From positions 31,997,332-32,061,331 of the forward strand of contig NC_135549.1 in NCBI RefSeq assembly GCF_964340395.1: 64,000 bases of DNA. The letters run 5' to 3'. This DNA comes from Glandiceps talaboti. Its lineage: Eukaryota; Hemichordata; Enteropneusta; Spengelidae. Positions within the stretch are counted from its first letter, which is position 1; each line of letters opens with the position of its first letter. Made by a program: the position numbers and the translations under genes. Shown here one piece after another: positions 4,601-54,059 of this stretch. The notes beneath the pieces were generated by a model. The model worked only from the letters and a program-made list of their open reading frames with translations. It made no database searches and was not told the DNA's origin.

Positions 4601-7600
4601 GTATCACTATGTTGCCATGGTAATACTTGATATTTTTATTCTTACCCTTCTTCCTGTTTCTTCTGATCTGAATCATCTTCCTCTGTTGATGATGAACTAT
4701 CACCATGACTCTGATTTTTATCTGTATTGCCTGGTTTCTGTTGTCTATGGATCACCAAATCTTCTTTACTGTGGTTTTTGTCATGGATTTCTGTATTTTC
4801 TACAATTGTCACTTTTTTCTGTAAAATACAAAAATCCAGTAATATACCATATGTCTAGCAACGAAAAGGTTATACTAAGTCTTGTTCATGAGATGCAAAT
4901 ACAAAATTCCTCATTTCAAACTTTGCTTTGTCTTTTTTTCCTGAAGACACAAAACCTGAAAAGATTGTAAAAATTGGTTAATTGTATTTTATATTTATTA
5001 TAATGGTTACTTAAGACCAGAGATGAACTGAAAATGCTCCCATTTGAGGGGAAATGTTGTTAATGTGCTTGCCAAGACTTTGAAATGTCTTTCTGTACTG
5101 TCGTACCTTTATGTAATCAATATCTGTAGTAAGTTCACTTGAAATCTGTACAGTCCTGGCTATATATCTCTTATTGCAAAAGTTCATCAAATATGCAAAT
5201 TAGCATTTCACTGATACCATCATATCTTTCTTGGTCTAGACCCTAATTGCCAAAGTCGTTAATTATGCAAATTAGCAATTAATTGACACCACCAAATTTC
5301 ATTGTATGCCTTTCCCATATCTTGAATGTGTAATAAAATAAGTAGTTGACTTGGTCAGCTGGATCTACACTCTTACATAATGGTGTCATTTCCTTCAAGT
5401 TCAAAGTCTGCCTTAAGATCAAATACAACAAGTGATTTTACAAAGACTGATTTACAGCCAGGCTGGGTGCCTACTAAATGGCTTTACTGTGTGTAGCAAC
5501 ATTGAAAAACATTAGAGTGAAACAAGCCAAGACACATAAAATAATGAACAATTTGAATCTTTAGTATGTCTTCCCATACCTTTGGAAAGGAAATATCAAT
5601 ATTTGAGAGTACAAAAAACTTGTATAAGTATGTAATAAAATAAGTAGTTGACTTCCTTGCTGGATCTATACACACGTGTCATTTCCTTCAAGTCCAAAGT
5701 CTGCCTCAAGATCAAATACAAGTGAGATACAAAGACTGATTAGGCCTGACTGGGTGTCTACTATTAATAGGGCTTCACTATGTGTCATTAATTATAGAAA
5801 GTATCATTAAGTTACAGCCTGACAATGCCACATAGTAAATTGCAGAACATTTGCTTCTGTACTTTTTGAGATATCAGTGGAACAAAATTTCTGCCCAGAC
5901 AGACAGACAGACAGACAGAGACAGACAGACAGAGACAGACAGACAGACAAACGGACAGACAGACAGACAGACAGAAAGACAGACAGACAGACATACCATA
6001 ACCTACCTTCTCTGTGTTTCTGACTTCACCCTATGTACTACAATAACCTACCTTTTCTGTATTTGTCTGTGGATCTGACTTCACCCTATGTACTACTGTA
6101 ACCTACCTTTTCTGTATTTGTCTGTGGATCTGACTTCACCCTATGTACTACGATAACCTACCTTTTCTGTATTTGTCTGAGGATCTGACTTCACCCTATG
6201 TACTACAATAACCTACCTTTTCTGTATTTGTCTGTGGATCTGACTTCACCCTATGTACTACTGTAACCTACCTTTTCTGTATTTGTCTGTGGATCTGACT
6301 TCACCCTATGTACTACGATAACCTACCTTTTCTGTATTTGTCTGTGGATCTGACTTCACCCTATGTACTACTGTAACCTACCTTTTCTGTATTTGTCTGT
6401 GGATCTGACTTCACCCTATGTACTACGATAACCTACCTTTTCTGTATTTGTCTGTGGATCTGACTTCACCCTATGTACTACTGTAACCTACCTTTCTGTA
6501 TTTGTCTGAGGATCTGACTTCACCCTATGTACTACAATAACCTACCTTTTCTGTATTTGTCTGTGGATCTGACTTCACCCTATGTACTACTGTAACCTAC
6601 CTTTTCTGTATTTGTCTGTGGATCTGACTTCACCCTATGTACTACGATAACCTACCTTTTCTGTATTTGTCTGTGGATCTGACTTCACCCTATGTACTAC
6701 TGTAACCTACCTTTTCTGTATTTGTCTGTGGATCTGACTTCACCCTATGTACTACGATAACCTACCTTTTCTGTATTTGTCTGTGGATCTGACTTCACCC
6801 TATGTACTACTGTAACCTACCTTTTCTGTATTTGTCTGAGGATCTGACTTCACCCTATGTACTACGATAACCTACCTTTTCTGTATTTGTCTGTGGATCT
6901 GACTTCACCCTATGTACTGCACTCTTGGATGATTTAGGTGTCGGACCATCCGTAGCATCTACAGATGAGGATGGAGTGGCTGATTCTGATGCTCTCCTCC
7001 TTTCTACCACGACTAGAATTAAAAAACATCATTCATATCCCAGTTAATACATCGCTAAAGTAGATGTTGTGTCTTGGTTTCCAAAATAGTTTCAACTTCT
7101 TTTTTTGAATTCTAATTATTGCAGTTACTTTTGGTACCAAATCCTGTAATAATATTTAGACTTTATAAACAGATTGTTGTCTGATATGAAATAGAAATGA
7201 TACAAGATGACGTCTAAACATGTCGGTATTATAATAATATGATTGATTTATAGCCAGTGACTATCAGCAAGTTAGTTTGGGGAAAAGCAAGTTGGAATGT
7301 GCACTTTGCAGATTCAGTGAAATTCAACATGTATACATGTAGGAACTGTGGTATTTAAAGTGACAGCAGAGAAAGTGTGATATATACTGACCCTCTGAGT
7401 AATCACCTCCTATGACACCGCCAAAGTAGATGTATGCAGGGAATTAGAATGAATGAAATGAACAGTGAATTAAGTATTAGTTATTGTCTGTGAGAAAAAA
7501 ACTGTTACTTGTTAATTACATAGTCAGTGACACAACACAACTGTAGTAAGTATCAGATATTTCATTACTTTGATAGCATAAACCAAACACACATAAAAGG

Positions 7601-15300: not shown

Positions 15301-18300
15301 TACATTTGCCATTCTGTGTATAAAAGTGTGATCTACATTTGTACATGGTACAGTATATGTACAGGTAATTTCACTAACCATAAACTGTACTGACATCAGT
15401 TTACAATAATGTACAATTGATCACACACTACATACAGCTATAGCAATCAATCACTTCTATATGTACAGCTGTAGCAATCAATCACCTCTATAAAGTACAG
15501 TGTCTACCTAGACTACTAAATCAGTCTTATTTCCACCTGTCCTGTTTTTACCTTCACACACTTCATATCACACTGTTATCTCATTGTGGGTTTTATTTTT
15601 ATGTTTTCAGGAGTCACAACAATTTCAAATTCATCCTTCTCATTGTCCCTACAGTTATTTTGTTTTACTATTAGGGTAACTTTAGGGTCAGGTCAGAAAT
15701 CGACACTATATTTTTTATTGTCATTTGCAGACATTTTTACGAACTCTACTATTTTATATGAGATTAAAAGTGGAAGGAGGGCCACAGTAAAATGTTATGC
15801 ATATTATAACACCTATATATACATGTAACATCACATACTAAAACTAAAATTGACCAAATGACAACAAATGTCTATATACATGTATGTAATATCAGGGTAT
15901 AAGACTGGAGCCTCAACCTGCTCACCTTGGTAACTGCCACATATGTATACATGTTGCTGTAACTACAACACTTTCCATAATTTGTATTCACATTTGTTGA
16001 CTCATTTGTTATGTTATACTAACTGAGGCATATAGTGTATGATATCACTCAGTTATCAAACCACAATATGAAAATACATGTATTTTTGACAAACATGTAT
16101 AAGTAAAAGGTTCATATCTTATTCATTGCCAGATGTAGGACATCGTGCCAGTGTACACAGTCAGAATGAAAGACTAACAGCTACTAGGAGGTTTTCAAGT
16201 GTTTTATGACATTTAAAACATGTATGACACTCAATACACTTTGTGGTATTTCATTACACTTTGTGACATTGTATTTACATGTACATGTGGCATTTGATAT
16301 ATGTATACTGTCGCTTTCAATGTGCTTTGTGGTATTTCATTCCCTTTGCTATTTCATTCAATACACTTTGTGGCTTTCAAAACACATTATGGTAGCATTT
16401 CATACACTTCAAATACACTGGCATTACATGCACATTGTGGTATTTCATTAAACTGGCATTCACTGCAATTTGTAGTATCTCATTCACTCTGTGGCATTCA
16501 ATAACTAGTATTCACTGCAATTTGTAGTATTTCATTCACTCTGTGGCATTCAATAACTACATGTAGTATTCACTGCAATTTGTGGTATTTCATTCACTCT
16601 GTGGCATTCAATAACTAGTATTCACTGCAATTTGTAGTATTTCATTCACTTTGTGGCATTCAATAACTACATGTAGTATTCACTGCAATTTGTAGTATTT
16701 CATTCACTCTGTGGCATTCAATAACTAGTATTCACTGCAATTTGTAGTATTTCATTCACTTTGTGGCATTCAATAACTAGTATTCACTGCAATTTGTAGT
16801 ATTTCATTCACTTTGTGGCATTCAATAACTACATGTAGTATTCACTGCAATTTGTAGTATTTCATTCACTCTGTGGCATTCAATAACTAGTATTCACTGC
16901 AATTTGTAGTATTTCATTCACTCTGTGGCATTCAATAACTAGTATTCACTGCAATTTGTAGTATTTCATTCACTCTGTGGCATTCAATAACTAGTATTCA
17001 CTGCAATTTGTAGTATTTCATTCACTCCGTGGCATTCAATAACGAGTATTCACTGCAATTTGTAGTATTTCATTCACTCTGTGGCATTCAATAACTAGTA
17101 TTCACTGCAATTTGTAGTATTTCATTCACTTTGTGGCATTCAATGACTAGTATTCACTGCAATTTGTAGTATTTCATTCACTCTGTGGCATTCAATAACT
17201 AGTATTCACTGCAATTTGTAGTATTTCATTCACTTTGTGGCATTCAATAACTAGTATTCACTGCAATTTGTAGTATTTCATTCACTCTGTGGCATTCAAT
17301 AACTAGTATTCACTGCAATTTGTAGTATTTCATTCACTCCGTGGCATTCAATAACGAGTATTCACTGCAATTTGTAGTATTTCATTCACTCTGTGGCATT
17401 CAATAACTAGTACTCACTGCAATTTGTGGTATTTCATTCACTTTGTGGCATTCAATAACTAGTATTCACTGCAATTTGTGGTATTTCATTCACTCCGTGG
17501 CATTCAATAACTAGTATTCACTGCAATTTGTAGTATTTCATTCACTCTGTGGCATTCAATAACTAGTATTCACTGCAATTTGTAGTATTTCATTCACTCT
17601 GTGGCATTCAATAACTAGTATTCACTGCAATTTGTAGTATTTCATTCACTCTGTGGCATTCAATAACTAGTATTCACTGCAATTTGTGGTATTTCATTCA
17701 CTCTGTGGCATTCAATAACTAGTATTCACTGCAATTTGTAGTATTTCATTCACTTTGTGGCATTCAATAACTAGTATTCACTGCAATTTGTAGTATTTCA
17801 TTCACTCCGTGGCATTCAATAACGAGTATTCACTGCAATTTGTAGTATTTCATTCACTTTGTGGCATTCAATAACTAGTATTCACTGCAATTTGTAGTAT
17901 TTCATTCACTCTGTGGCATTCAATAACTAGTATTCACTGCAATTTGTGGTATTTCATTCACTTTGTGGCATTCAATAACTAGTATTCACTGCAATTTGTA
18001 GTATTTCATTCACTTTGTGGCATTCAATAACTAGTATTCACTGCAATTTGTGGTATTTCATTCACTTTGTGGCATTCAATAACTAGTATTCACTGCAATT
18101 TGTGGTATTTCATTCACTTTGTGGCATTCAATAACTAGTATTCACTGCAATTTGTAGTATTTCATTCACTTTGTGGCATTCAATAACTAGTATTCACTGC
18201 AATTTGTAGTATTTCATTCACTGTGGCATTCAATGCATATCATGACATTCAATACACATTGTGGCATTTCATACACTAGCATTCATTGCATGTCATGACA

Positions 18301-21300
18301 TTCAATGCACTTTGTGGCATTTCATACATTTTGTGGCATTCAACCTATTTTAACTCACCTTGTGATTGTAAGGCTTATTTGAGAACAGTTCAGGACTCAT
18401 GTAATATGGGGTGCCTATAAGTGTGGTAGCCATGTCATTATGACCATCTAGGACCTTAGCAATCCCCAAGTCACCCACTTTGATTATCTTGCTCTTGGTC
18501 AGGAAAATATTCTGAGTTTTTAAGTCTCTGTGGAGAATATTTCTTTCATGCATGTACTGAAAAGAGAAACAAATTTAAAAATGGTGATTGTAAACAGGTT
18601 GGTATCATACTGCTGTTGTTGATGAGTACAAAGACTACATCTCATTCAAGTACATGTACATCCAGTAATGCTGTCTTTTGTATCACACTGTCTATACCCT
18701 GACATCATACCGGTACATTTATGCTACATGTAGGTTTGAGTGAAATCAGTTGGTGCATACCAGAGATATGAGGGTGAATGCATGCACACACGCATGCCTG
18801 CCTGCATGGACAGACAGATGGATGGACAGACAGAACCCTGTATAAGTCCCCTCTGGGCGGTGCCTCATTGGGAACTAATAATCCTACATGTACACACACA
18901 CAAAGAAATGATTACACAGATTTAACATGTTTATACAGATGTAATGGTTGTACATGTATGTCAAGAGTGTTCAAAATATCTTAGACTCAACACACACTTT
19001 AAACCACACCTCTGACTCAGCTCTCCAAACCACTTTGTACCCAAGGTAGGCATAACCAGTGTGACTGACATGACACACAATTAATAATATGGGTACAGGT
19101 GTAATACTATTAACAATAGAGAGTTTCGGCTACACGTTCAACATGTACGCGCAAGTGTGACGTAGGAGATTTTGTGCTACTAGGTCGCAATTTTGACCTA
19201 CTTCTCTGCGTACTGACAAGTTTCGCGGGCATTTTGAACGTGGCGACGGCTATTTACACGTAGGTAAATGTGAAATTCCTTTTAAATTTTTTTGTAAAAT
19301 CATCACTAATATAATAAAAAAATTTGATGCTTTTAGCAAGGCTGACCATTCACAACATAATACACCTCAGTAATTTTGTTTTCCTTGATAAAATATTTAA
19401 AATGCAGCCTGGAATCTGTGGCTGCCTTCACGTAACTGATTTTGCACATAAATCACGATGTATGATGATGACTGTCGCAGCAATCGTCAAGATACTACAG
19501 GGTGATTTTATTGTGAACATACGAGATTATTCAAGTAAATATATATTTGTCTTGTCATAATGTTGAGCCATACGGTTATTGTCATTGCGCTATTTATGTC
19601 ATATAACCAAAACATTAATGTAATATTTCCACAATAGACTAACCATGTAATCTATTAATTATTATTGATATACGTAAACGGCTAGCCTAAGCAAAATTAG
19701 GTCACAGCTGGTACGCAAACGTGAATGAGTTGCCCGTTCGTGTACACGTTGAACGTGTAGCCTAAACTCTCTAATGTAGGTCAACAACCTTCCAAAACAA
19801 GGTCAGACTATAGTTACCAAGTAACATTTTTTCTTAATGTATCAGGTCGCTGGGAATTCAAATTACCAATGTCAGTAAACACAGTGGTTACAAGATTTAG
19901 ACAACACAACTTTTACATTGACTGGAGAATATGATGAACCAGCCAATGGTTTGTCTATGGGCTCTACATGTACGTTTGTATTTGTAAGAGAAACATTGTT
20001 GCAGTGTATCCAGCAATCAATGATTAGTCTATACATGTACAAAAAATGTAGGAAAAAGTGTATGAGAAACGCTATGCTTGGGAACAAGATAGAGAATGTC
20101 CACAGTCGTCATATTGGCAGAGGGTATCGTTTATTACATGTACAGTACATGTATCTATGAACACAGTCATGAGTATTTAGACAATTGGTGTACATTTACA
20201 TGTACATTGTGTATGTACATGTATATGTATTATCAGTACTGAACTTGTGACTACATGTACACATAAAGATATTTTGAACAAGAATTCTACAAACAATTGA
20301 GATTAGAGCCTTACCTGCAATGCCATAGCTATCTGTACAAACCATTCTACCACTTGCTTCTCTTCTAAGGCATGTCCTTTCTGTTCTTTTAACTTAGTGT
20401 ATAAATCACCCCCATCACAATATCCCATCGCTATGTACAGATACCCATCATTTGTCTCAAATGAGTCTTTGTAAGAAACTATATTGGGGTGCTTTAATTT
20501 GGATAAAAGTTTGGCCTCCAGTTCAGCAGCTTTCCTTTCCCGTTTTGAAGCATTCACTAACTCCATTTTCTTCAGGACATACTAGAAATGGAAGAAAAGC
20601 CTACATCAATTCATGTATGTGTACATTTGTACATTTGTACATGTATTAATAGTGTCCCTCTAATGGATTTTACCAAATTATTTGCTTACATGTACGTAGA
20701 CATGTTGAAATTCCCTACTACGACTTTGCCATATTTACAAACAATGTAGGTACTATACTCAATAGTACTCTGATAAAAAACCATGATGTAGTATGAGTTC
20801 CAATGTGGTGTAGTACTTGAGGTACATGTACAATGAAATTGCATTGTGTGTTTGTGGTATACATTTTGGCTGTCCACTCATGAGAATGCAGTAGGAAATG
20901 ATGCAAGCAAAATACCAAATACATGAATACCTACACTTGTACTTGTACATGTACGTGTATGTGTATATGTGTACTGGTACTCATAGCATACATGTACATG
21001 TAAGTCATGGAGGTTTTGTTATTACATAAATTATGTTTATCAGAAACAGCAAATTTCAATAAAAACCATAGAGTGCAATTAAGTGATATTGTTTACAGGG
21101 AGTGATCACATCCTCATATCATATCATATCATGTACATTTTGTAGGTATGAGTCTATGACATACATTTTGTAATGATTTTTGTATTACACTACACTACAA
21201 ATACTATTAGTATATCATGTATACTGATATTAGAGATAATAATGTACACTGTGTACATGTACATTTGTAGATGTACTTGTTTTCTGTACAACAAACACAA

Positions 21301-23375: not shown

Positions 23376-23645
23376 TCACGAGGCAGCTGGTATATTTTTG
23401 TTCAAGTGGTGTTCTCGAATTTTGAATCCTTGTTGAATAAATGTACCTATTTCAACTAGTTTATTTGTGTCTTTTATTTTGAGAATCTTTATGAGATTAT
23501 CCATGCTTGAACCAGAATATATATTTAATTTGTTAAAGAGTTCTTTCCTTTCATTTTGATATCCTATACAGCGTAATAAGAAATGCTCCTCGTCTTCTAT
23601 TTCACCTTGTTTACATACAGGGCATGTCCTGCTTGATAAGGTGGT
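23376..23645 (-). pseudogene. LINE C-terminal zinc-knuckle segment (other frame)
   Basis: After a one-base shift the frame reads RTCPVCKQGEIEDEEHFLLR followed by Cys, a C-x2-C...H-x4-C pattern typical of the LINE C-terminus. It goes on to a natural stop at 23376-23378. The shift lies between about 23,630 and 23,645 and would have been missed by taking the long frame alone. Confidence 0.82.
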
Positions 23646-25792
23646 GTTTGTGTATCTTCAATTCCAGTTTCTATATGTAGAATATGTGCACTAATTCTAA
23701 GTTTTGTCATTGCTGATCTGTATTGTGGGTTTTTAATGTCTTCTAGATAGTTTTCAAAGTTCATATCCGTTTTAATTTGTCTATATGTACGTAATTTATT
23801 TTTATATTGTTTGTCCTTGTTGTCCTTCATTGTGTCCATTATATTTTTGTGGAGAAGCAACTTTAACGTTTCTTTAAATATAGCTATTAGGTTTTCACTG
23901 TTAGAATGGTTTGGTTCAGCTGTCCAGACCTTATCCATACTCAAGAGTTTTAGTGTTTGCTTCATTCCTGTGGCCCATGATTGTATTCCACTGGACTCCA
24001 GATTTTTACTCAGACAGTAAGCTTCCTTAGTTAGGGTATTTTCTGCTTTCTGTGAGATCTTTAGCCAATATTTGAACATTTGTGTCAGGCCAGATACTAG
24101 TAGGGGGTAGCGGCCTAGTTCCATAAGGCAAGCTGTATTGGCAGCTTTACAGTTCACATTTAGTAGGAATTTGCAGAACTTTATGTGTAGTTTTTCCATG
24201 GGAGTTGAAAATTTCATTAGGTTTTGCGACTGGTTAATGTTTTCATGTGACCAAACCTCACTGCAGTATAGGAGAATGGGCTTCATCACTGCATCAAATA
24301 ATTTAAGATGTAATTTGATGGGGATAGTTGTTTCTAAAAACAGGTCTTGTTTTAATTTAAACAGTGCCTGCAGTGCTCTATATCTTAGGTCATCTTGTGC
24401 CCTGTGTAGTTTCCCTGAGGTGCTCAGTTTTATTCCAAGGTATGTGTAGGAGGGAACGCAGTCTAGTACTTGCTTGTTTATGTAGAATTTAAATTTCTTC
24501 AAACATTTTCCTGACTTATTGAAAATCATGATCTTTGATTTGGCAATATTTATATCTAAGTGCCATCTTTCACAGAAGATTTCGACTGCATTGAGGGCAT
24601 TTTGTAGACCAGTATTTGATTCCGATAGTAACATTAAATCGTCAGCATATAGTAAGCAAGACAGCCTGCTAGTTAGGAGAGTTGGTGGGTCATTGTTTGA
24701 CATATCAATTTGTCTTTTTATATCATTTACATAGATATTAAATAGTAGGGGGCTGAGGCCATCCCCTTGTCTAATACCTCTCTGTATTGGAAATTGGCGG
24801 GTCAGACCATTTTTTGTCTTAACACATCCAGTTGCGTTTGAATAGATAGCTTGGATTACTTTATAGAAACGTCCTGTGATGCCATTGAGTACCAATTTGT
24901 GGAAAAGCCCTTCATGCCAAATTGAGTCAAAGGCTTTTTTCAGGTCTATAAAGCAAGCAAAAATGTATTTATCTTTACTTCGGTATTTTGTAATTAACTG
25001 GTTTAGTACGAATATGTGATCACTAGTACTGAATTTCGGTAAAAAGCCAACCTGTTCTTTAATTATAATCTCATTTTTGTCATTAAATTCAACCAGTCTC
25101 TGTTTCAGGACTGAAGTGAATAATTTACTCAAACAATTTAAAAGTGTGATGCCACGATAGTTACTGGGATCTGTCTTGTCTCCTTTTTTGTAGATAGGTG
25201 TAATTATACCCATATTCCAGCATCTAGAAAAATGGCCACTTTCGAGAATTAGATTGAACAGTTTTTGAATGTGTGTAATGAGAACGTTTCTACTGGCTGT
25301 GATCATTTCATTGGTTATGTTATCTATTCCGGGTGATTTTTTGTGCTTGAGTGTACTTATTGTTTTTTGAATTTCAAGCTCAGAGATTGGCTTATCTAAT
25401 TCTATGGAATCAACAATTTTTTCTAGCCTGTTATTTTTACTAACATAGGTGGTATCTGAAGTAAGTTTTACCTTGTTTAAACTGAGACTTTTGAAATGCT
25501 CAAACAGTTTTTCTTTCTCAACAATTTCTCCATTACATGTCTTACCCTCTTGTGGCACTCTTAAGTTCTTAATAAGTTTCCAGTACTCATCGGGATGTGA
25601 ATCACTCAGGTTTTCTAGTTTAGACAATATTTCATTTTTAAATTCTCGTTTCTTTTTTTTCACAGCCTTCTTGTAATTTTTCTTTTGTTCATAACAACTA
25701 TTTCTCAGTTGATGGTTAAATGGGTCTGTGCTCAGTTTAGTGGAAAGATTGTGTATCTCCTTTTTCATACAAGAAAGTTTTTTGTGTACCAT
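23597..25792 (-). pseudogene. LINE reverse transcriptase, long open frame
   Basis: An uninterrupted 731-codon frame, part of a broken larger ORF. Seen in order: a Lys-rich N-terminal linker, SNYRGITLLNCLSKLF (finger), FIDLKKAFDSIW (palm motif A), GIRQGDGLSPLLFNIYVND (motif B), LLYADDLMLL (motif C with catalytic YADD), YLGIKLSTSGK (motif D/E) and the thumb. The three catalytic Asp are present. It ends in the wrong frame: the true C-terminus continues in another frame from about 23,640. Confidence 0.93.
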
Positions 25793-26225
25793 GTTTGCTT
25801 TCTGGTTTTCTTTTTCTTTTTTCTTTTTTTAAAGAAGCGTTTTTTTAGGCTTTTACCAGCTGCCTCGTGATAGATGTCTGATAACATAATGCCAGCCTGA
25901 TCAACTGACTTTTTAGAATTATCAAAATGTTCTCTCTCAAAGTTCTTAGCCACTACTATTACCTCCTGGCTCTGTAATGCGTTGTAGAAATAATATTTTG
26001 AGTTTGTATCCCATATGTATGAAAATTTGGATTGACAATAGTTATTCGAGTCATCTGCTGTAGAATTAGGTGTAACTTTATCATCTTGTAGTATGTTAGT
26101 CTGCAATGTAAATAACATTTGGCAATGATCAGATAAAACCAGGTTCAATGGCTGAACACTAAAAACACCAATCCTATTGAACAGACTATGACTAACAATG
26201 GTATAATCTACTGTACTAGGGCAAC
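25765..26225 (-). pseudogene. LINE endonuclease fragment
   Basis: C-terminal end of the apurinic-endonuclease-like domain. CPSTVDYTIVSHSLF (upstream of the first start codon in this frame) and LNLVLSDHC are the conserved last two blocks, with SDH supplying the catalytic His. The N-terminal catalytic residues are missing. The frame is lost in an A-rich tract at about 25,808-25,836 before the reverse transcriptase. Confidence 0.85.
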
Positions 26226-27029: not shown

Positions 27030-30000
27030 GTAAGTAAACTTTTCGTAAATTTAAAACAAATTTGTTAATTTGTCAGTTTATTTCCGGAAATGACAGTAAA
27101 TCTAGATACCTAAACATCAGTACGAGAGTTTGAAATGCTGGTAACGTACTCACAGACCAGTCGGGACTGACTGCAGTCTAGCAAAGGATCAGACAAGTGT
27201 TTCGTCTGACTGCCGCGGTGGGTGTGGAGCTTTTTCGCCTGCTACTACTATTATATTCTAGTATTAGCTTTCGTAAGTTCTATTTTCGGTATTCGTTACT
27301 ATACCATCATAATAATTATTAGAGTTAATTATTTTCCGTTTCCATATGTTTTTCTGTGTGTTCATTTGTGGTTGCGACACGTATAGTGTAGACGTCTACG
27401 GTAAATTGACTAATGTACTACCATGCTAATTTTGATACTAGTCCTGCTTGCATACGTCGAGTCGTCCCCACCATCTACCCACAGACACTTGTTACCCGAT
27501 ATATGTATCAGAATGTTTCTATCAGAATACAATAAAATGTCGATAATATCGATACTATTGACGTATTTAGCCAACTATATATGAACGGGGTGAAATTACA
27601 CTTGTTTCTGTGATCGCACAAGTCCACTCACCGCGAAATATTAGACAAGGTTTGCAACAGAACACCATTTACCGTACGGCAACATGAACTTTCAGCCTCG
27701 CTGTGGCTACAAAAGTCCCAGTTCGGAGGACCAAAAATCGCGAAATCACAAGTTCAACCTTAATTTGAGGGTTCCGCCTTTCATACGATGACGTAGTGGA
27801 CATCCCGACTAACTAAATACTAATCATACTAACTCGAGTCTCTGTGCATGCCTTCCACTTCCTGGTTGTGTTTTCATAGTGATTATTTAGTCTGATAACA
27901 TACTAGTAGATATATCTCTGTTACTATAGTGTTAGGTTCATTTTTTAGGACAACTGAACTGATAAGGTTCAGTGTAGCTCATAGCTGCAATAATTGTAGC
28001 GTTTGATGTGATTTTGAGGGCTTTTTCGTCTGTTTTGTGCCATTTTTCGTTCCAACAAATGCTACAATTCCTCTAATGCAAACACAAATAGACAGAACCG
28101 ATTCAGATCTGAATCGCAAAGTTGGGCGGACTTTTCTGCTAAATTACGCCTAGCTGGCAAAATAACACCAACATTAATTACGGAGCCTTCAAGCCCCAAG
28201 AAGTGTTCAGAGGTACCCCAATTCCGTCAAAATCGGCAAATGTAGCAACGCATGCAGCATTTTGAAACAGGCAGTACGCTGACATCTCGCTCATGTTTTC
28301 AACGTGGTCTCGTCTATTTGCATTTGCGCTACAGGAAATGTAGCGTTTGATTTGGGTTAAATGGCGGAACGAAAAAAGGCACAAAAACAGACGAAAAAGC
28401 TTTCAAAATCACATAAAACGCTACAATTATTGCAGCTAGGTTCAGTAGTGCTATACTGTATACATATAATGATGTAGGCATGGCAAAGTGTCTGTCTGTG
28501 GATGTGTGTGTAAACAACTTAAAGTTAAAACCGATGGACTGATTGTTATGATATTTGTTGGGTGTACTACCTTGGTGAATTGTTCAAATCAAAATGATTT
28601 GGGTAAAAAATTATGATTATGGTCAAAAAACTTAAACTCAAAAATTATTGTGCAGATTGGTCTGAAATTTGGTGGGAATATTCTTAGAGGTGTTTAGATT
28701 AAAAGTTGTTCATGACATGATGATCCTATCAATGATTTGCAAATAAGGTATAAAAATGTGTCTTTTTTGGTTAAAAATCTTTAATTTCAAAACTACTAAG
28801 CAGATTAAGCTGAAATATTTGGTGGGAACATTCTTAGGTTTATTTATATATATATATATTTCTGTCCTTTTTTGATAATGCCCCCCCCCCCCCCCCACCA
28901 GTACAAAAAAATGTCCCCTAATTTTTCATGGAAGGCCCAAGTGCCCCCTAATCATGACATCCAAGAATGAACACTGGTGATGTTTCTAGAGGTATTCTGT
29001 ATTTATTGTTGAAAACATTTTTACACAATTGGCAAACAGCAACCTTAACCCAAGCCCTTATCAACAGTGAAATGATGATGCATATTACACAATGAAGGGT
29101 AGATAATAGACTGTCGACAGTCGCTAGTGCCTTGTTTGCTACGTTTATTTAAAGTTAAAGTCGTTGCCATGCTTCGATCTGGAGCAATACTACTATAATC
29201 GCATACTGATAGCGCAGCGACGACTTTAGTTTTAGATAAAATATAGCAAAAAAGACGCGAGCAACTGTCGACAGTCTTGGTAGATAAGTGAATAAATATA
29301 TTTAAATGTACGCAAATATGCCTAGACCACGCCCATAGCAATGGATAAATGATGGCTTACAATACATTGCAAAGATGAAAACTGGAAAGGGTAGGCAAAT
29401 TAATAAATATTCCACAAATGTATGCAAATATGCCAAGCAACGACCATGTCCATACCAACAGCCAACTACAGTTGTGCTACAGTGCCATTGGTAGTATTTT
29501 ATGATAAAGATCTTTGCCAACAATACTTCCATTGTGGATACAAATAGAATAATGAATTATACATTAATTAGTAAACTGCATGAGTTCAAAAGAGGAAAAG
29601 TTCAAAAGATTTGTTTTGTTCACATTTAGTCTTTCATATTGCAACATATAACATTTCTGTTTTATTTTAGGCTGCAACACTGCGACCATACCTAAATGCA
29701 GTCCGTTCAACATTAACGGCTGCAATGTGTTTGGAAAACTTTCCTTCACAAGTTGTTGAAAGACACAACAAACCTGAGGTGGAAGTCAGGTAGGAAAATA
29801 AATGTTCAATATATACAGAAAGGGACTGTCCAGGAATTTTAGTTGCGTGTACAAAAACACATTTATTCACGTCAAGATCCCTCTATGAAAATTGACAAGT
29901 GTGACATGGGATTGTTACATGATTACTGAATACAATATTTTAATTTGCCCATGATTGTTCAGTAACAATAACATGTAAAGGAAATCAGTCAAAATACATG

Positions 30001-30228
30001 ATCATTGTATCTGCATCCTGATGTTTCTATTCTTTTACAAGACAAAATATTACATGTACATTTGTATAACAGTATTCACAAACATGGTATTCCAAGTGAA
30101 CATTAAGGAAGTTCAATTGGGAGATGTTTGCAGTTTTTAGCACAACTGACTGATAAGGTTCAGTTGTGCGATAGGCATGGTGCGGTGTCTGCCCGTGTCT
30201 GCCCGTGTGTGTGTGTGTGTGTCTGCCC

Positions 30229-30265
<37 letters not shown>

Positions 30266-33200
30266 CATGCGTGTGCGTGCGTGCGTGCGTGCGTGCGTGC
30301 GTGTGTGACTTAAACTCAAAAACCGCCAGACCGATTGCCTTGGTATTTGGTGGGGACATTACTTTTGGTGTCTAGTTGGGAAATTGTTCAAAGCAAAATG
30401 ATCGCATCTTAGGTATGTGATTTGGGTCAAAAAATGTCATTTTTAGCACAACTGAACTGAGTCTCTGTACATTTGTAGTGCTATAGGGATCGCCCGGCGT
30501 CTGTGTATGTGTGTGTGTGTGTGTAAACAACTTAATGTCAAAAACCACTGAACCGATTATTATGATATTTGGTGGGTCCATTACCTTGGGTGTCTAGTTG
30601 GGAAACTGTGATCTTACCATTGGTTTGTGATTTGGGTCAAAAAATGTGATTTGAGGTAAAAAAACTTAAACTCAAAAACTACTGGGCAGATTGGGCTGAA
30701 ATTTGGGTGAAACATTCTTCAGGGTGTTTTTACTAAGAATTATTCATAATATGAGTGATATGCAAATTAGGGCTACATGTAAAATGTGTCTTTTCGGTAA
30801 AAAATCTATAATTCCAAATTCACTGAGCAGATTGGGCTGAAATTTAATGGGAATGCATCTAGGGATATATGGACGAAGAAATTAAGCATACAATGATTCC
30901 ATCAGTGATATGCAAATTAGGTGTAAAATAATCACATATATTGCAAAGATAACAGGAAAAGAAAGACAAATGAATAAACATTCAAAAAATGTATGCAAAT
31001 GTGCCTAGCAACAAGACCACGCCCATAGCAACAGCCAAATGATCACATATATTGTGAAGATAACTATGGGGATTAATAGACAATTGAATAAACATTCAAA
31101 AAACGTATGTAAATTTGCCTAGCAACAAGACCACGCCCATAGCACAGCCAAATGATCACATATATTGTGAAGATAACTATGGGGAATAATAGACAAATGA
31201 ATAAACATTCAAAAAATGCATTCAAATGTGCCTAGAAGCAAGACCACGTGCATAGCAACAACCAGATGATCACATATATTGTGAAGATAACAAGAGGATT
31301 AATTGACAAATGAATAAACATTTACAAATGTATGCAAATATGCCTAACAACAGCCAAATGATCGCGTATATCGCAAAGACAGCAACATGGTTGGATAGGC
31401 AACTGGATAGTCATTCAGCAAATGAACACCTATTGTTAGCATAGACTAGCATATGGATAAACATTTTTAAAAACTGTACAATTGTTCTACAACACCATTG
31501 GCGGTATTCTTGGTCAAGAAACTTAAACTGAAAAACTACTTGGCAGATTGGTCTGAAATTTGGTGGGAACGTTCTTAGGGGTGTGTGGATTAAGATTTGT
31601 TCATCGTATGATGTTTCCCTCAGTAATATGCAAATTAGGGCTAAAATGTGTCTTTTTGGTCAAAAATGTTTCATTCCAAAACTACAATGCAGATTGGGCT
31701 GAAATTTAATGGGATGCATTTGGGGGTGTATAGATGAAAGAATATTGAGCATGTAACAATCGCATCAGTAATATGCAAATTAGGTGTAAAATTGTGAATT
31801 TTGGTCAAAAACGTACATCTCAAAAAGTACTTGGTCAATGAGACTGAAATTTAGTGAGATGTTTCTAGCAGTGTTATTCTGCAGATTTTGTTCAAATGTT
31901 TTGACACAACTGGCCCAAGCAACCATGACCAATCCCTTAGCAACAACCAAATGCCAGTATATTTTGCTAAAATAACATCATCTGGTACGCAAGTGAGTAA
32001 ACATTCAATAAGTATGCAAATATGCCTAGCAACAAGACCATGCCCATAGCAACAGCCAAATGATTACATATTTTGCAAAGATAACAAGAGATTAATAGAC
32101 AAGTAAATAAACATTCAAAAAAATGTAAATGTGCCTATCAACAAGACCACGCCCATAGCAACAGCCAAATGATCACATATATTGCAAAGATAGCAACAGA
32201 GATTTAATAGACAAATGAATAAGCATTCAAAATATGTATGCAACATAGCAACAATACGAAGCCCATAGAAACAGCCATATGATGATGTATATCTCAAAGA
32301 TAACAGCAGGGATTCATAGACAAGTGAACGAACATTCAAAAAATGTATGCAAATATGTCTAGCAACATGACCACGACCGTAGCAACAGCCAAATGATCGC
32401 GTATATTGCAAAGATCAGAACAGGGCTGGGTAGGATTTTTGCATTAGCGGTTCAAGTGTGACTTTCCCCGACTTGGTGAGCCACCAAGTCAGGTGAAAAT
32501 TGTTTGCATCTCTGAAGCTATTTGCAATGTCACTGATAATAGGTCAGTAAAACTGATAACAACTGATATAATGTATGACATTAGGGGCTTCACACTTAGA
32601 TATTGAGCTTAGCTTTGCCTGATGTGTTATATAACAGTGCTTTATCTCATTTGTAAATATTGCCAACAAACATTATTCAGTGATAAGAAAGATAAGAAAC
32701 CCCACTTCTTGATTCTGTAATGTAATTATGGAATACCACACTCTAACTCAGTTATTGTTTTTGTAGCATGTTACTAGTATGCAAATTTCAACTTCCAGAT
32801 TTAAATAAACATACAAACAGATCCCCTGAGGCCTCATGAATCTCATCAAACCCAAAGTCATTAAACATTTCTATCACGTCACACTCCAAAAGTATTGTTT
32901 TGTAAGTCAAATAATGTAGCTTGAAAATCACAGCTCATAATGAAAAATTTTTGGACCCTTTCGTAGTTCTAATGGACTACAACTTTCAGAATTCCATAGC
33001 CCAAAGATGGTGACCAGTAGTCACATTCCTTAACTGTAAAATAGGATCCCCTGTGGACATACATGTACAGTCCAAAGATGGTGACCAGTAGTCACATTCC
33101 TTAACTGTAAAACAGGATCCCCTTTGGACATACATGTACAGTCCAAAGATGGTGACCAGTAGTCACATTCCTTAACTGTAAAACAGGATCCCCTTTGGAC

Positions 33201-36200
33201 ATACATGTACAGTCCAAAGATGGTGACCAGTAGTCACATTCCTTAACTGTAAAACAGGATCCCCTTTGGACATACATGTACAGTCCAAAGATGGTGACCA
33301 GTAGTCACATTCCTTAACTGTAAAATAGGATCCCCTGTGGACATACATGTACAGTCCAAAGATGGTGACCAGTAGGCTCATTCCTAAATTGTAAAATAGG
33401 ATCCCCTGTGGACATACATGTACAGTCCAAAGATGGTGACCAGTAGTCACATTCCTTAACTGTAAAATAGGATCCCCTGTGGACATACATGTACAGTCCA
33501 AAGATGGTGACCAGTAGGCTCATTCCTAAATTGTAAAATAGGATCCCCTGTGGACATACATGTACAGTCCAAAGATGGTGACCAGTAGTCACATTCCTTA
33601 ACTGTAAAATAGGATTCCCTGTGGACATACATGTACATGCACAGTCCAAAGATGGTGACCAGTAGGCTCATCACTAAACTTGAAACAGGATCCCCTTTGG
33701 ACATACATGTACAGTCCAAAGATGGTGACCAGTAGTCACATTCCTTAACTGTAAAATAGGATTCCCTGTGGACATACATGTACATGCACAGTCCAAAGAT
33801 GGTGACCAGTAGTCACATTCCTTAACTGTAAAATAGGATCCCCTTTGGACAATTACAGTCCAAAGATGGTGACCAGTTGTCTCATCACTAAACTTTAAAC
33901 AGGATCCCCTTTGGACATACATGTACAGTCCAAAGATGGTGACCAGTAGGCTCATTCCTAAATTGTAAAATAGGATCCCCTGTGGACATACATGTACAGT
34001 CCAAAGATGGTGACCAGTAGGCTCATTCCTAAATTGTAAACAGGATCTCCTGTGGACATATGTATATGTACATGTTATCAAAATATCAAAATACATGTAT
34101 CCAAGTGCTAAATAAATTGTAAGACAATCAGTGGCAGCCTAGTCTGGGTGGACAACCACTGCAACTTTTGCTATCCATATGCCAAGATGGCTGTAGACAT
34201 GGAACTACGGTTACCATACCATTAATTGTGAGACCTGAAAACACTATACAATTGAAACAACCATACATGTATGCATATTTTGCAAAAGATCAATTGTTAT
34301 CAATATTTGTGTTGTTTTGTATTGTAGGAGCAGCAAAGAATTGCTTCTACAGCCTGTTACAATAAGCCGCAATGAAAAAGAAAAAGTTCTAATTGAAGGA
34401 TCAGTAAACTCTCTCAGAATAAGTATTGCAGTTAAGCAGGTAAGTAAACTTCTCTTTTTGATATAAATTTCAGTGTTGTTGGTTTTGGATATTTAACATA
34501 TCTATACATTTTTTTGTATATCTGACTGGTTTGTATGATAGAAGGTTCAGTGAAACTTGTAAATACACATGTTTTGAAATGTTGCCAGTGTCTTTGGCAG
34601 TAAGATTAGATGCACTGCTTCATAACATGTCCATGTAGTACTACACAGAATGAATGATGATGTCATTCCTAGTATAAACCATTACTGCTTTGAACCGATT
34701 GTGTCAATACTGTAGTAACCATGGTAATGCTAAGAAACCTTGGGTCTTGCTGTATACATTACAATGTACATGTACATGTACTGTAACCATGGTAATGCTA
34801 AGAATCTTTGGGTGTGTGTTGAAGACGAAGGGCCACTGGTTGAGGGTGCTTAGTAGAACTAAACTCATAAATAATTAATAAGGTAGTCATAGTAAAGCTG
34901 GTTTATTGAAGTTAAAATTGATTGAGAAAAAAAACCCGCCAGCTTTGAAATCATTACTTTATTACATGGCACCTAGGGAAAATATATTTTTTAAAAAGCA
35001 AAAAAGAAAGAAAACAACACCAAAACATCTTTAGTAGTACCTGTTATCGCCAATATCAGTACCAGAATATCTTTAGTAGTACCTGTTATTGCCAATACCA
35101 GTACCAGAATATCTTTAGTAGTACTTGTTATCACCAATATCAGTACCAGTACCAGAATATCTTTAGTAGTTCCTGTTATCTCCAATACCAGTACCAGAAT
35201 ATCTTTAGTAGTACCTGTTATCTCCAATACCAGTACCAGAATATCTTTAGTAGTACCTGTTATCTTCAATACCAGTACCAGAATATCTTTAGTAGTACCT
35301 GTTATCGCCAATACCAGTACCAGAATATCTTTAGTAGTACCTGTTATCTTCAATACCAGTACCAGAATATCTTTAGTAGTACCTGTTATCGCCAATACCA
35401 GTACCAGAATATCTTTAGTAGTACCTGATATTGCCAATACCAGTACCAGAATATCTTTAGTAGTACCTGTTATCGCCAATACCAGTACCAGAATATCTTT
35501 AGTAGTACCTGTTATCGCCAATACCAGTACCAGAATATCTTAAGTAGTACCTGATATCGCCAATACCAGTACCAGAATATCTTTAGTAGTACCTGTTATC
35601 TCCAATACCAGTACCAGAATATCTTTAGTAGTACCTGTTATCGCCAATACCAGTACCAGAATATCTTTAGTAGTACCTGTTATCGCCAATACCAGTACCA
35701 GAATATCTTTAGTAGTACCTGTTATCGCCCATACCAGTACCAGAATATCTTTAGTAGTACCTGTTATCGCCAATACCAGTACCAGAATATCTTTAGTAGT
35801 ACCTTTTATCTCCAATACCAGTACCAGAATATCTTTAGTAGTACCTGTTATCTCCAACACCAATACCATACATGTACATCACATTCTAATAGTACCTGTT
35901 ATCTCCAACACCAATACCATACATGTACATCACATACTAGTACCTGTTATCTCCAACACCAATACCATACATGTACATCACATTAATAGTACATGTTATC
36001 TCCAACACCAATACCATACATGTACATCACATTCTAATAGTACCTGTTATCTCCAATACCAATACCATACATGTACATCACATACTAGTACCTGTTATCT
36101 CCAACACCAATACCATACATGTACATCACATTCTAATAGTACCTGTTATCTCCAACACCAATACCATACATGTACATAACATTCTAATATATAACTTCTT

Positions 36201-39200
36201 GACCAATTTGTAGGCTGATGAAATTGAGAAGATTTTGTGTCATAAATTTATGAGGTTTATGATGATGAGAGCAGAAAATTTTTTCATTCTCAGAAGGAAG
36301 CCAGTTGAGGTAAGGATGGTCACTCCATTCATGGAAAATCTTGTGTTTAATAATTAATTTATGTTTTATCATTTATACGATCACAAACTTATCAGTGTTC
36401 TTTTATATCAAAGCAGATTAGAATATTCCACTGTAGACCGAGTACCACACTGGACTTTATTACAATTTGTTTAACAAATCAATTTTACCATGACTTCCTA
36501 CTTGAAAAATCAATGTGAAACAACACATCCAAAATACTTGGTTGTAACTCAATAAATTGCAGAAGATTGATATATATGTAAAATCTTTGTTTGTGTACGC
36601 CAATGCACGCTAATAAGAGCAATCAGAAAATACCATTACTTCAAGGGCAGTACCTGTATGCCAATGCACGCTAATAAGAGCAATCAGAAAATATCATTAC
36701 TTCAAGGGCAGTACCTGTACGCTAATGCACGCTAATAAGAGCAATCAGAAAATACCATTACTTCAAGGGCAGTACCTGTATGCCAATGCACGCTAATAAG
36801 AGCAATCAGAAAATATCATTACTTCAAGGGCAGTACCTGTATGCCAATGCACGCTAATAAGAGCAATCAGAAAATACCATTACTTCAAGGGCAGTACCTG
36901 TATACCAATGCACGCTAATAAGAGCAATCAGAAAATACCATTACTTCAAGGGCAGTACCTGTATGCCAATGCACGCTAATAAGAGCAATCAGAAAATACC
37001 ATTACTTCAAGGGCAGTACCTGTATGCCAATGCACGCTAATAAGAGCAATCAGAAAATACCATTACTTCAAGGGCAGTACCTGTATACCAATGCACACTA
37101 ATAAGAGCAATCAGAAAATACCATTACTTCAAGGGCAGTACCTGTATGCCAATGCACGCTAATAAGAGCAATCAGAAAATATCATTACTTCAAGGGCAGT
37201 ACCTGTATGCCAATGCATGCTAATAAGAGCAATCAGAAAATATCATTACTTCAAGGGCAGTACCTGTATGCCAATGCACGCTAATAAGAGCAATCAGAAA
37301 ATACCATTACTTCAAGGGCAGTACCTGTACGCCAATACACGCTAATAAGAGCAATCAGAAAATACCATTACTTCAAGGGCAGTACCTGTATGCCAATACA
37401 CGCTAATAAGAGCAATCAGAAAATACCATTACTTCAAGGGCAGTACCTGTATACCAATGCACACTAATAAGAGCAATCAGAAAATACCATTACTTCAAGG
37501 GCAGTACCTGTACGCCAATGCACGTTAATAAGAGCAATCAGAAAATACCATTACTTCAAGGGCAGTACCTGTATGCCAATGCACGCTAATAAGAGCAATC
37601 AGAAAATACCATTACTTCAAGGGCAGTACCCTATCAACAATTATCTGTACTCGTATTCATATCTGTCAAAGTCATTCATTTCCGGGATTTGTCTCCAGTA
37701 TACAGTTTGTCTGCCTGTCATTTCTGGGATTTGTCTCCAGTATACAGTTTGTCTGTCTGTCAGGATAACATTAACGCTGCTGTTAACGTTTTGAAATTAT
37801 ACCAATCTTCATGAGAAGGTTTGAACGTCATGATGTCACCAGTCATGTATAATTAATACCCATGCCCAGCAAGTCGTTTTCTGACAGAGTACTCTACTTT
37901 GATGCTAGGAAATATATACTCTTGACATGTGAGAATATGCAAATGTTGATGGATTCTTATCATTTTAACCAATTTTAAGCATTGTCATTACAACTTGCTA
38001 GGTAAAAGAGAACGCGATCTATGCATTAAAGTTCCTTAAAGTATCAAATTCTTTTTTTGAAACCGGTGTGACTACTGCCCTCTACAATCAGGAGTATATT
38101 TGACCTTGTTTTTGTTTTATTTTCAGGGCTATGACATCAGTTTCTTGATCACAAACTTCCACACAGAACAGATGTTCAAACATAAACTTGTAGACTTTGT
38201 TATTCAGTTTATGGAAGAAATTGACAAAGAGATAAGTGAAATGAAGTTAGCTGTCAATGCAAGGGCACGTATTGTTGCAGAAGAATTCATGAAAAAAGTA
38301 AGTTGGATTAAGTTTGATACTCTTCAGGTGTGTTGAAATATATATCTATTATAAATCAATATTCAAAAACATCTCATTGTGTTATAATTGTATGGTATAG
38401 TGCTTATAATTAATAGCCATATATGTAAATTAGTCTCCATTTTATGTAGCAAGTTTAAAACTCTGATGATGAAGCAGCCATATAAACTACGGCATGCAGT
38501 CTTGTTCTCTATTCAAAGCTGTATGGTTGTTGTTTAGCACACTAATTCAGTTCTTTTGGGACTGATGACTCACCATCTACAGTACACGTATGTCTTGTAG
38601 TACTTTGAGTGATGTTGTCCATCCAGCTGGGTCAGCTCTGCCATGAAAAATATGTCCCATAAATAAACACTGCTTTTAACAATTTATGATAGCATGGATT
38701 GTGAGAATTTCTCTGGAAAGAACACTGAACTGATTACTCAGATCTGTTTGTGATGCCCACCTGATTTGAAGGTTAAACAAAGACTATGATATGGAATACT
38801 CTTTGTTATCATCTTGCCCTTGGACAAACATTAATGGTTATTAAGTGCACTGCATCAACCCATTCTTGATGAATAACTTCAACTAAAATGTATACACACA
38901 TATGTCCATTGAATGCTCAATTTATAATTGAACATTGCCTATGTTTTCAAACACATTCCTGAAAGTCAAGTGCATGTTACTTTATTTGAGGTGACAGTGG
39001 GTCTAATCAGTGTTGCCACCCAGAGAGAAATAACCAAGTCAAGCACTCCCTTTTATCTGATCCAGATAATTTAGTCATGTCTGTAAGGAAATGGTTACTT
39101 TGATGTGCCTTACTGGCAACATGTTTGTTTTGCTTGCTCTCAGGGGGTGTTGAATGTATGACAATAACTGATAATTACACTCTGTGTAGTAACATGTCTT

Positions 39201-46714: not shown

Positions 46715-46895
46715 CAAGTATTGACAAATTGTCAGTCATTGTGTACAAGTATCTTTATATCTAATAATCGTAACTGTCACATAGTCATTAATTTCAATTT
46801 CGTTCACTCTTGCAAGCCATACCACATATTTCTGCTGATGTAAGGACATACAGCTCTGTCTTCTTTCACTGTACAATCCAGTATTTTATAAAAGT

Positions 46896-47465
46896 CTCCC
46901 CACGTACATGATGTATCAAATATCGGCATGTCTCCTCACGTACCGGATGTATCAGATATCGGCATGTCTCCCCACGTACCTGATGTATCAGATATCGACA
47001 TGTCTCCCCACGTACCTGATGTATCAAATATCGGCATGTCTCCCCACGTACCTGATGTATTAAATATCAGCATGTCTCCCCACGTACCTGATGTATCAAA
47101 TATCGGCATGTCTCCTCACGTACCTGATGTATCAAATATCGGCATGTCTCCCCACGTACCTGATGTATCAGATATCGACATGTCTCCTCACGTACCTGAT
47201 GTATCAAATATCGGCATGTCTCCCCATGTACCTGATGTATCAGATATCGACATGTCTCCTCACGTACCTGATGTATCAAATATCGGCATGTCTCCCCACG
47301 TACCTGATGTATCAGATATCGACATGTCTCCCCACGTACCTGATGTATCAAATATCGGCATGTCTCCCCATGTACCTGATGTATTAAATATCGACATGTC
47401 TCCCCATGTACCTGATGTATTAAATATTGGCATGTCTCCCCATGTATGTACCTGGGGTATCAAAT
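46896..47465. repeat. Minisatellite, 36 bp x about 15
   Basis: Units of CATGTCTCCCCACGTACCTG then ATGTATCAAATATCGG. A multiple of three, so a 180-codon frame with 12-residue repeats (MSPHVPDVSNIG) is open, but nothing supports translation. Lies just downstream of the inferred ARPC4 polyadenylation site. Confidence 0.96.
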
Positions 47466-50751: not shown

Positions 50752-53700
50752 GTCTAGCAATCCATCTAAAACTTATCGATGTCAGAGTACTTATTCTCAT
50801 CTAAAACTTACTGATGTCAGAGTACTATTCTCATCTAAAACTTACTGATGTCAGAGTACTATTCTCATCTAAAACCTACCGATGTCAGAGTACTATTCTC
50901 ATATAAAACTTACTGATGTCAGAGTACTATTCTCATATAAAACTTACTGATGTCAGAGTACTATTCTCATCTAAAACTTACTGATGTCAGAGTACTATTC
51001 TCATATAATACCTACTGATGTCAGAGTACTATTCTCATCTAAAACTTACTGATGTCAGAGTACTATTCTCATATAAAACCTACTGATGTCAGAGTACTAT
51101 TCTCATCTAAAACTTACTGATGTCAGAGTACTATTCTCATCTAAAACTTACTGATGTCAGAGTACTATTCTCATATAATACCTACTGATGTCAGAGTACT
51201 ATTCTCATCTAAAACTTACTGATGTCAGAGTACTATTCTCATCTAAAACCTACTGATGTCAGAGTACTATTCTCATCTAAAACTTACTGATGTCAGAGTA
51301 CTATTCTCATCTAAAACCTACTGATGTCAGAGTACTATTCTCATCTAAAACTTACTGATGTCAGAGTACTATTCTCATCTAAAACCTACTGATGTCAGAG
51401 TACTATTCTCATCTAAAACTTACTGATGTCAGAGTACTATTCTCATCTAAAACTTACTGATGTCAGAGTACTACTCTCATCTAAAACCTACTGATGTCAG
51501 AGTACTATTCTCATATAATACCTACCGATGTCAGAGTACTATTCTCATATAAAACCTACCGATGTCAGAGTACTATTCTCATCTAAAACTTACTGATGTC
51601 AGAGTACTATTCTCATCTAAAACTTACTGATGTCAGAGTACTATTCTCATCTAAAACCTACTGATGTCAGAGTACTATTCTCATATAAAACTTACTGATG
51701 TCAGAGTACTTATTATCATCTAAAACCTACTGATGTCAGAGTACTATTCTCATCTAAAACCTACTGATGTCAGAGTACTATTCTCGTCTAAAACTTACTG
51801 ATGTCAGAGTACTATTCTCATCTAAAACCTACTGATGTCAGAGTACTATTCTCATCTAAAACCTACTGATGTCAGAGTACTATTCTCATCTAAAACTTAC
51901 TGATGTCAGAGTACTATTCTCATCTAAAACCTACTGATGTCAGAGTACTATTCTCATCTAAAACTTACTGATGTCAGAGTACTATTCTCATCTAAAACTT
52001 ACTGATGTCAGAGTACTATTCTCATATAAAACCTACCGATGTCAGAGTACTATTCTCGTCTAAAACCTACTGATGTCAGAGTACTATTCTCATATAAAAC
52101 CTACCGATGTCAGAGTACTATTCTCGTCTAAAACTTACTGATGTCAGAGTACTATTCTCATATAAAACTTACTGATGTCAAAGTACTATTCTCATCTAAA
52201 ACTTACTGATGTCAGAGTACTATTCTCATCTAAAACTTACTGATGTCAAAGTACTATTCTCATCTAAAACTTACTGATGTCAGAGTACTATTCTCATCTA
52301 AAACTTACTGATGTCAGAGTACTATTCTCATCTAAAACTTACTGATGTCAGAGTACTATTCTCATCTAAAACTTACTGATGTCAGAGTACTATTCTCATC
52401 TAAAACCTACTGATGTCAGAGTACTATTCTCATCTAAAACCTACTGATGTCAGAGTACTATTCTCATCTAAAACCTACCGATGTCAGAGTACTATTCTCA
52501 TCTAAAACTTACTGATGTCAGAGTACTATTCTCATCTAAAACTTACTGATGTCAGAGTACTATTCTCATCTAAAACTTACTGATGTCAGAGTACTATTCT
52601 CATCTAAAACTTACTGATGTCAGAGTACTATTCTCATCTAAAACTTACTGATGTCAGAGTACTATTCTCATATAAAACTTACTGATGTCAGAGTACTATT
52701 CTCATCTAAAACTTACTGATGTCAGAGTACTATTCTCATCTAAAACTTACTGATGTCAGAGTACTATTCTCATCTAAAACCTACTGATGTCAGAGTACTA
52801 TTCTCATCTAAAACTTACTGATGTCAGAGTACTATTCTCATCTAAAACTTACTGATGTCAGAGTACTACTCTCATCTAAAACTTACTGATGTCAGAGTAC
52901 TATTCTCATATAAAACTTACTGATGTCAGAGTACTATTCTCAACTAAAACTTACTGTCAGAGTACTATTCTCATATAAAACTTACTGATGTCAGAGTACT
53001 ATTCTCATATAAAACTTACTGATGTCAGAGTACTATTCTCATCTAAAACTTACCGATGTCAAAGTACTATTCTCATATAATACATACCGATGTCAGAGTA
53101 CTATTCTCATCTAAAACTTACTGATGTCAGAGTACTATTCTCATCTAAAACTTACTGATGTCAGAGTACTATTCTCATCTAAAACTTACTGATGTCAGAG
53201 TACTATTCTCATCTAAAACCTACTGATGTCAGAGTACTATTCTCATCTAAAACTTACTGATGTCAGAGTACTTATTATCATCTAAAACCTACTGATGTCA
53301 GAGTACTATTCTCATCTAAAACCTACCGATGTCAGAGTACTATTCTCATCTAAAACCTACTGATGTCAGAGTACTATTCTCATCTAAAACTTACTGATGT
53401 CAGAGTACTTATTATCATCTAAAACCTACTGATGTCAGAGTACTATTCTCATCTAAAACTTACTGATGTCAGAGTACTATTCTCATCTAAAACTTACTGA
53501 TGTCAGAGTACTATTCTCATCTAAAACTTACTGATGTCAGAGTACTATTCTCGTCTAAAACTTACTGATGTCAGAGTACTATTCTCATCTAAAACTTACT
53601 GATGTCAGAGTACTATTCTCATCTAAAACTTACTGATGTCAGAGTACTATTCTCATCTAAAACCTACTGATGTCAGAGTACTATTCTCATCTAAAACTTA

Positions 53701-54052
53701 CTGATGTCAGAGTACTATTCTCATCTAAAACTTACTGATGTCAGAGTACTATTCTCATCTAAAACTTACTGATGTCAGAGTACTATTCTCATCTAAAACT
53801 TACTGATGTCAGAGTACTATTCTCATCTAAAACTTACTGATGTCAAAGTACTATTCTCATCTAAAACTTACTGATGTCAGAGTACTATTCTCATCTAAAA
53901 CTTACTGATGTCAGAGTACTATTCTCATCTAAAACTTACTGATGTCAGAGTACTATTCTCATCTAAAACTTACTGATGTCAGAGTACTAGTCTCATCTAA
54001 AACCTACTGATGTCAGAGTACTATTCTCATATAAAACTTACTGATGTCAGAG
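50752..54052. repeat. Large minisatellite, 34 bp x about 97
   Basis: 3.3 kb of units GATGTCAGAGTACTATTCTC then ATCTAAAACTTACT. Variation is confined mostly to ATCTAAAAC/ATATAAAAC and CTTACT/CCTACT/CCTACC, with a few TTATTATC and one deleted unit (about 52,950). The longest array in the window. Confidence 0.98.
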
Positions 54053-54059
54053 TACTTTT

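Follow-up and report, generated by a model that had tools for sequence, protein, structure and literature searches.

A probable "mirage" minisatellite across an exon–intron junction of a NEK4-like gene in Glandiceps talaboti

Introduction

The window analyzed here is a 64,000-nucleotide stretch of the genome of the hemichordate Glandiceps talaboti (contig NC_135549.1, positions 31,997,332–32,061,331), and all positions below are counted along it. Its minus strand carries a NEK4-like kinase gene in which the end of one exon, together with the adjoining splice donor, recurs as the unit of a 55-bp minisatellite. How did an exon–intron junction become a tandem array, and which of its many donors does the gene use? 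We consider it likely that the array is a "mirage" minisatellite that expanded from a single exon–intron segment and remains nearly silent, with the first donor being the one in use.

Results

Tandem Repeats Finder (TRF) places a minisatellite at 6011–6918 with a period of 55, 16.5 copies, 95% matches and a score of 1662. On the minus strand, the final 43 nt of a NEK4-like exon and 12 nt of the following intron make up the 55-bp unit. Seventeen GTAGGT donors are found on this strand. Their first intronic bases fall at 6875, 6820 and onward to 6051 and 6006, and the donor-to-donor spacing of 55 is replaced once by 54 and at the end by 45. AAG/GTAGGT (the slash marks the splice site) is present in all 17 units and represents the gene's own donor, at the exon end at 6876, and 16 decoys. 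A preliminary description of this DNA, which had recognized a NEK4 exon–intron junction turned into a minisatellite with a full GTAGGT donor in each 55-bp unit, is borne out by the TRF result and the 17 donors, and its estimate of about 16 competing donors in a row agrees with the count.

Of the 17 units, 16 are full (15 of 55 bp, one of 54 bp) and the last is degenerate. When the 54-bp unit is padded, only columns 25, 52 and 53 of the 55 vary among the full units, in addition to one 1-nt indel. The mean number of differences between units is 2.33 at lag 1, 0.93 at lag 2 and 0.70 at lag 6, and identical pairs are absent at lag 1 (0/15), account for 5/14 at lag 2 and reach 6/10 at lag 6. The array is thus periodic at 110 bp (lag 2) and at 330 bp (lag 6). 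The two-variant, 110-bp dimer proposed in the preliminary description is a real alternation, but it is interrupted once, at the units at 6259 and 6204, and the 330-bp period fits as well. The homogeneity of the units and the two periods fit a recent turnover of the array, and the pattern of unit identity appears to point to recent expansion by blocks. In a DNA search of the 590-Mb assembly, in which only the best candidates were scored and very common words were skipped, the array was met once.

Which gene hosts the array? Splice sites, phase and an open frame allow twelve exons of the NEK4-like gene to be recognized between 22644 and 4000; the model may miss exons. A Pfam scan of four kinase exons gives no family for the first and Pkinase (PF00069) for the remaining three, with E values of 2.7e-14, 7.3e-21 and 5.7e-05, the last of which falls below the Pfam gathering score. 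The best solved relative of one kinase exon, among 60 of 133 matches in the PDB, is NEK1. Five kinase exons are 53–87% identical to what we take to be the human NEK4 sequence, the exon at 20315–20581 being 74% identical to this presumed sequence, and the gene name NEK4 rests on this comparison plus the matches above. With its final 43 nt, the array-bearing exon (Table 1) supplies the first array member. This exon is entered in phase 1 and left in phase 0, and the reading frame continues into it from the preceding exon, as read from the sequence. The unit includes the last ten exonic codons, consistent with the earlier assignment of its coding part to the end of exon 10.

Read-through beyond the real donor extends for six codons and then meets a stop, within the seven codons foreseen in the preliminary description, and this holds for all 16 decoys. 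The strength of the array donor is ordinary: it scores 9.9 with a generic matrix, and higher scores are obtained for 6 of the 16 donors of the NEK4-like gene and of ARPC4, a gene on the plus strand of the window. Given that the 17 donors are alike over 9 nt, position or transcription order, rather than donor strength, would decide between them. Splicing most likely joins the donor lying farthest upstream, at 6876, to the acceptor before 4818.

Discussion

What process could have placed 17 donors in a row at the end of a coding exon? The simplest assumption is that the array was seeded over a donor. A 55-bp segment, composed of the 43-nt end of the NEK4-like exon and 12 nt of intron, would have been tandemly duplicated, and the array would then have expanded partly by the 110- and 330-bp blocks that are visible in its period structure, through unequal exchange or slippage. 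Because unit 1 of the array is the exon end, the copy number can rise or fall with no damage to the exon; almost every unit, if it came to stand first, would supply identical codons and an identical donor. A transcript that used a decoy would encounter the stop six codons on and would probably be removed by nonsense-mediated decay. When arrays are counted from a period of 10 and 2.5 copies upward, 30 merged arrays take up 29.8% of the window; the share is 21.7% in the NEK4 span and 49.7% in the ARPC4 span. With arrays this dense, one would occasionally be expected to start over a junction. We therefore regard the mirage as one minisatellite among many that was seeded on an exon edge and tolerated, probably a nearly neutral by-product of a genome rich in minisatellites.

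Predicted accessibility weighs against this interpretation. Local folding makes the first donor the least accessible of the 17, with a probability of being unpaired of 0.019 compared with 0.032–0.126 for the rest; an RNA structure that shields the decoys is not seen in this folding. In favor of the interpretation, arrays touch 1 of 24 exon edges in NEK4 and 0 of 8 in ARPC4, where circular shifts of the arrays touch 5.2 and 4.0 on average, or about 9 of the 32 edges together. The fraction of shifts that touch as few edges or fewer is 0.065 for NEK4 and 0.114 for ARPC4, and the corresponding fractions are 0.165 and 0.114 for exons touched and 0.034 and 0.114 for exonic bases. This is a weak test, in which one of the 24 NEK4 edges is the beginning of the first exon rather than a splice site, and a few edges are one or two bases off; it is also biased because exons buried in arrays would go undetected. 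The deficit of touched edges agrees with selection that removes such arrays and lets one survive now and then, although it is suggestive only.

Does the array instead regulate NEK4 output? If some transcripts took a decoy donor, stopped early and decayed, the number of units would set the protein dose. This proposal draws on the equality of the 16 decoys and the real donor over 9 nt, on the stop that follows every decoy and on the low predicted accessibility of the first donor, and human variable tandem repeats at exon–intron boundaries can alter splicing (PMC2812944). We nevertheless judge such dose control to be rather improbable. Lancelet mirages are reported in PMC3087553 and PMC3902484 without interference in regular splicing, which the Adh3 data and the reverse transcription–polymerase chain reaction on globins in PMC3087553 suggest to be undisturbed. 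Moreover, no constraint of a regulatory type is seen in the array, since the donor shows no variation, but neither do 52 of the 55 columns. A broader scenario, in which the exon end with its donor belongs permanently to an array of rapid turnover, concerted evolution rewrites the last 14 codons and the donor, and the number of units tunes NEK4 output via decoy-donor use and decay, is conceivable but unlikely.

Other explanations assign a splicing role to the AG dinucleotides of the units or a directed role to the donor. According to the former, each unit would function either as a microexon or as a dual-specific AG/GT site in recursive or UBC-like splicing, and inclusion would vary. AGGT occurs in each unit, and human UBC units are delimited by dual-specific sites and spliced stochastically (PMC10809524). 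The AGs that the preliminary description proposed as acceptors do exist. With a rough acceptor matrix built from 15 sites, TTGTAG scores 5.2 (3 copies), TCGTAG 2.9 (6 copies) and TACATAG 1.9 (16 copies). The best array AGs thus fall within the spread of the real acceptors, whose leave-one-out scores run from −4.6 to 14.6 with 5 of 15 below 1.9, and AGs in the rest of the intron have a median of −3.0, a 90th percentile of 3.7 and a maximum of 7.8. These scores would be compatible with the use of array AGs as acceptors. In contrast, the pyrimidine content between −20 and −5 does not exceed 0.50 for the array AGs examined, compared with 0.56–0.81 for 15 real acceptors of the NEK4-like gene and ARPC4, one of which is read a base out of register, and the AG of AAAAG/GT, on which a dual-specific site would depend, has the lowest score among the kinds of array AG listed, −15.3. 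Recursive or dual-specific splicing at AAAAG/GT, which lacks a pyrimidine tract, is therefore disfavored. The 55-bp units also carry stops. The preliminary description had suggested that three 34-nt exons together would keep the frame, yet their 102 nt contain a TGA, and one, two or three such pseudo-exons alike bring in stop codons. Mainly for this reason the proposal of variable microexons is weakened; a few array AGs score like the weaker real acceptors, but the stops and the low pyrimidine content disfavor a microexon series, and we regard inclusion of the units as very improbable. The directed process, in which splice donors are the preferred source of minisatellites in this genome, is disfavored and retains only the slightest probability. 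A strong donor-like motif does occur in the units of two other arrays, at 46894–47446 (CAGGTACGT) and at L003:4731–4996 (AAGGTGAGA). However, among 42 arrays (period 15–200) in 256.5 kb, which is the window plus 22 pieces, 8 contain a donor-like motif of at least 7 bits, compared with 5.8 ± 2.1 in random non-array segments of equal length. This value of 8 is reached in 41 of 200 random draws, and thresholds of 6, 8 and 9 bits also give no clear excess that would make donor motifs a general source of minisatellites here. In addition, the exon edges touched by arrays are fewer than under shifting.

The mirage interpretation has precedents in amphioxus. PMC3087553 describes minisatellite-like tandem duplications of exon–intron boundaries in amphioxus globin genes; such repeats had earlier been reported in Adh3 and named mirages, show length instability and are proposed as a route to new introns. 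PMC3902484 agrees on Adh and TnC, which it mentions among the mirages, and adds PGBD5. In Adh3, the globins BflGb6 and BflGb9, and TnC, an exon–intron boundary is duplicated and splice signals recur in many units. The NEK4 array likewise contains an exon–intron junction in its unit and repeats the splice signals, the exon being supported by its splice sites and frame. The globin mirages resemble it further in their homogenized interior and divergent edge unit, and the edges of the globin clusters are described as escaping homogenization (PMC3087553). The 55-bp unit lies within the 10–72 bp of the Adh3 units, whereas BflGb6 has 3 or 6 units of 150–160 bp in two haplotypes and the NEK4 array has 17 nearly identical units. 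Thus, the NEK4 array looks like a fresh example of a kind already described in amphioxus.

Other systems share part of this organization. Human repeats at the exon–intron boundaries of duplicated genes, which change introns, also represent minisatellite expansion across a boundary, but they differ in having transcript evidence of altered introns, in their association with segmental duplications and in their units of on average 30 bp repeated four times (PMC2812944). In intron gain through tandem duplication (PMC4974935), the duplicated segment spans an intron–exon boundary and splice signals are copied; there, the acceptor boundary was duplicated and a new intron formed, whereas the NEK4 array multiplies the donor. 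The UBC gene, with its dual-specific splice sites, has AGGT in each tandem unit as well (PMC10809524). There, complete ubiquitin monomers form the units and are spliced in varying number, whereas the NEK4 units are not a multiple of three, contain stops and lack good pyrimidine tracts. In-frame coding units of the UBC type are thus not found in the array, given its 55-bp unit and the stop six codons into the read-through.

What can be learned from the array? Seventeen identical donors that differ in position only offer a clean test of how the spliceosome picks the first of equal 5′ splice sites. The locus also illustrates how, in a genome rich in minisatellites, an exon edge can be caught up in concerted evolution, and a junction array is possible raw material for new introns. 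If the interpretation is true of a host that is not a lancelet, mirages are not a peculiarity of cephalochordates.

Other features of the window

Table 1. Positions of the array, its host exon and related features in the window.
Feature	Position	Strand	Description
First array unit	6864–6918	−	43-nt exon end, real donor and 12 nt of intron
Fifteen further full units, 14 of 55 bp and one of 54 bp	6040–6863	−	Decoy AAG/GTAGGT in each
Degenerate last unit	6000–6039	−	Exonic part of 33 instead of 43 nt; 17th GTAGGT at 6006–6001
(CAGA)n microsatellite	5896–5993	+	Adjoins the intron-side end of the array; TRF
NEK4-like exon with the array, tenth of 12 recognized	6876–7012	−	137 nt; acceptor TTCTAG/TCGTGG, donor AAAAG/GTAGGT
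Next exon	4646–4818	−	Phase 0; acceptor TTTTACAG/AAAAAA; frame joint with the exon ending at 6876 open
Kinase-domain exon, marks the gene as NEK-family	20315–20581	−	Pfam PF00069, 2.7e-14; NEK1 in PDB, 1.8e-23

ARPC4 has four exons on the plus strand at 29671–38297, identified by Pfam (PF05856 for two of them) and the PDB. A 743-aa open reverse transcriptase frame at 23600–25828 on the minus strand (PF00078, 1.6e-39) marks a retroelement just upstream of the NEK4 start. Within NEK4, a 52-bp array at 16451–18328 begins approximately 50 nt from the donor at 18359, with similar sequence nearer to it by eye. The ARPC4 arrays at 35019–36189 stop 25 nt short of the acceptor of the exon at 36214, and their last units bear, by eye, a branch-point-like CTAAT. 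The array at 46894–47446 has a 36-bp unit, with its donor-like motif on the minus strand, and open frames run through much of it; the array in L003, left of the window, has a 35-bp unit. Copy numbers among the minisatellites of the window reach 97, for a 34-bp unit at 50763–54060.
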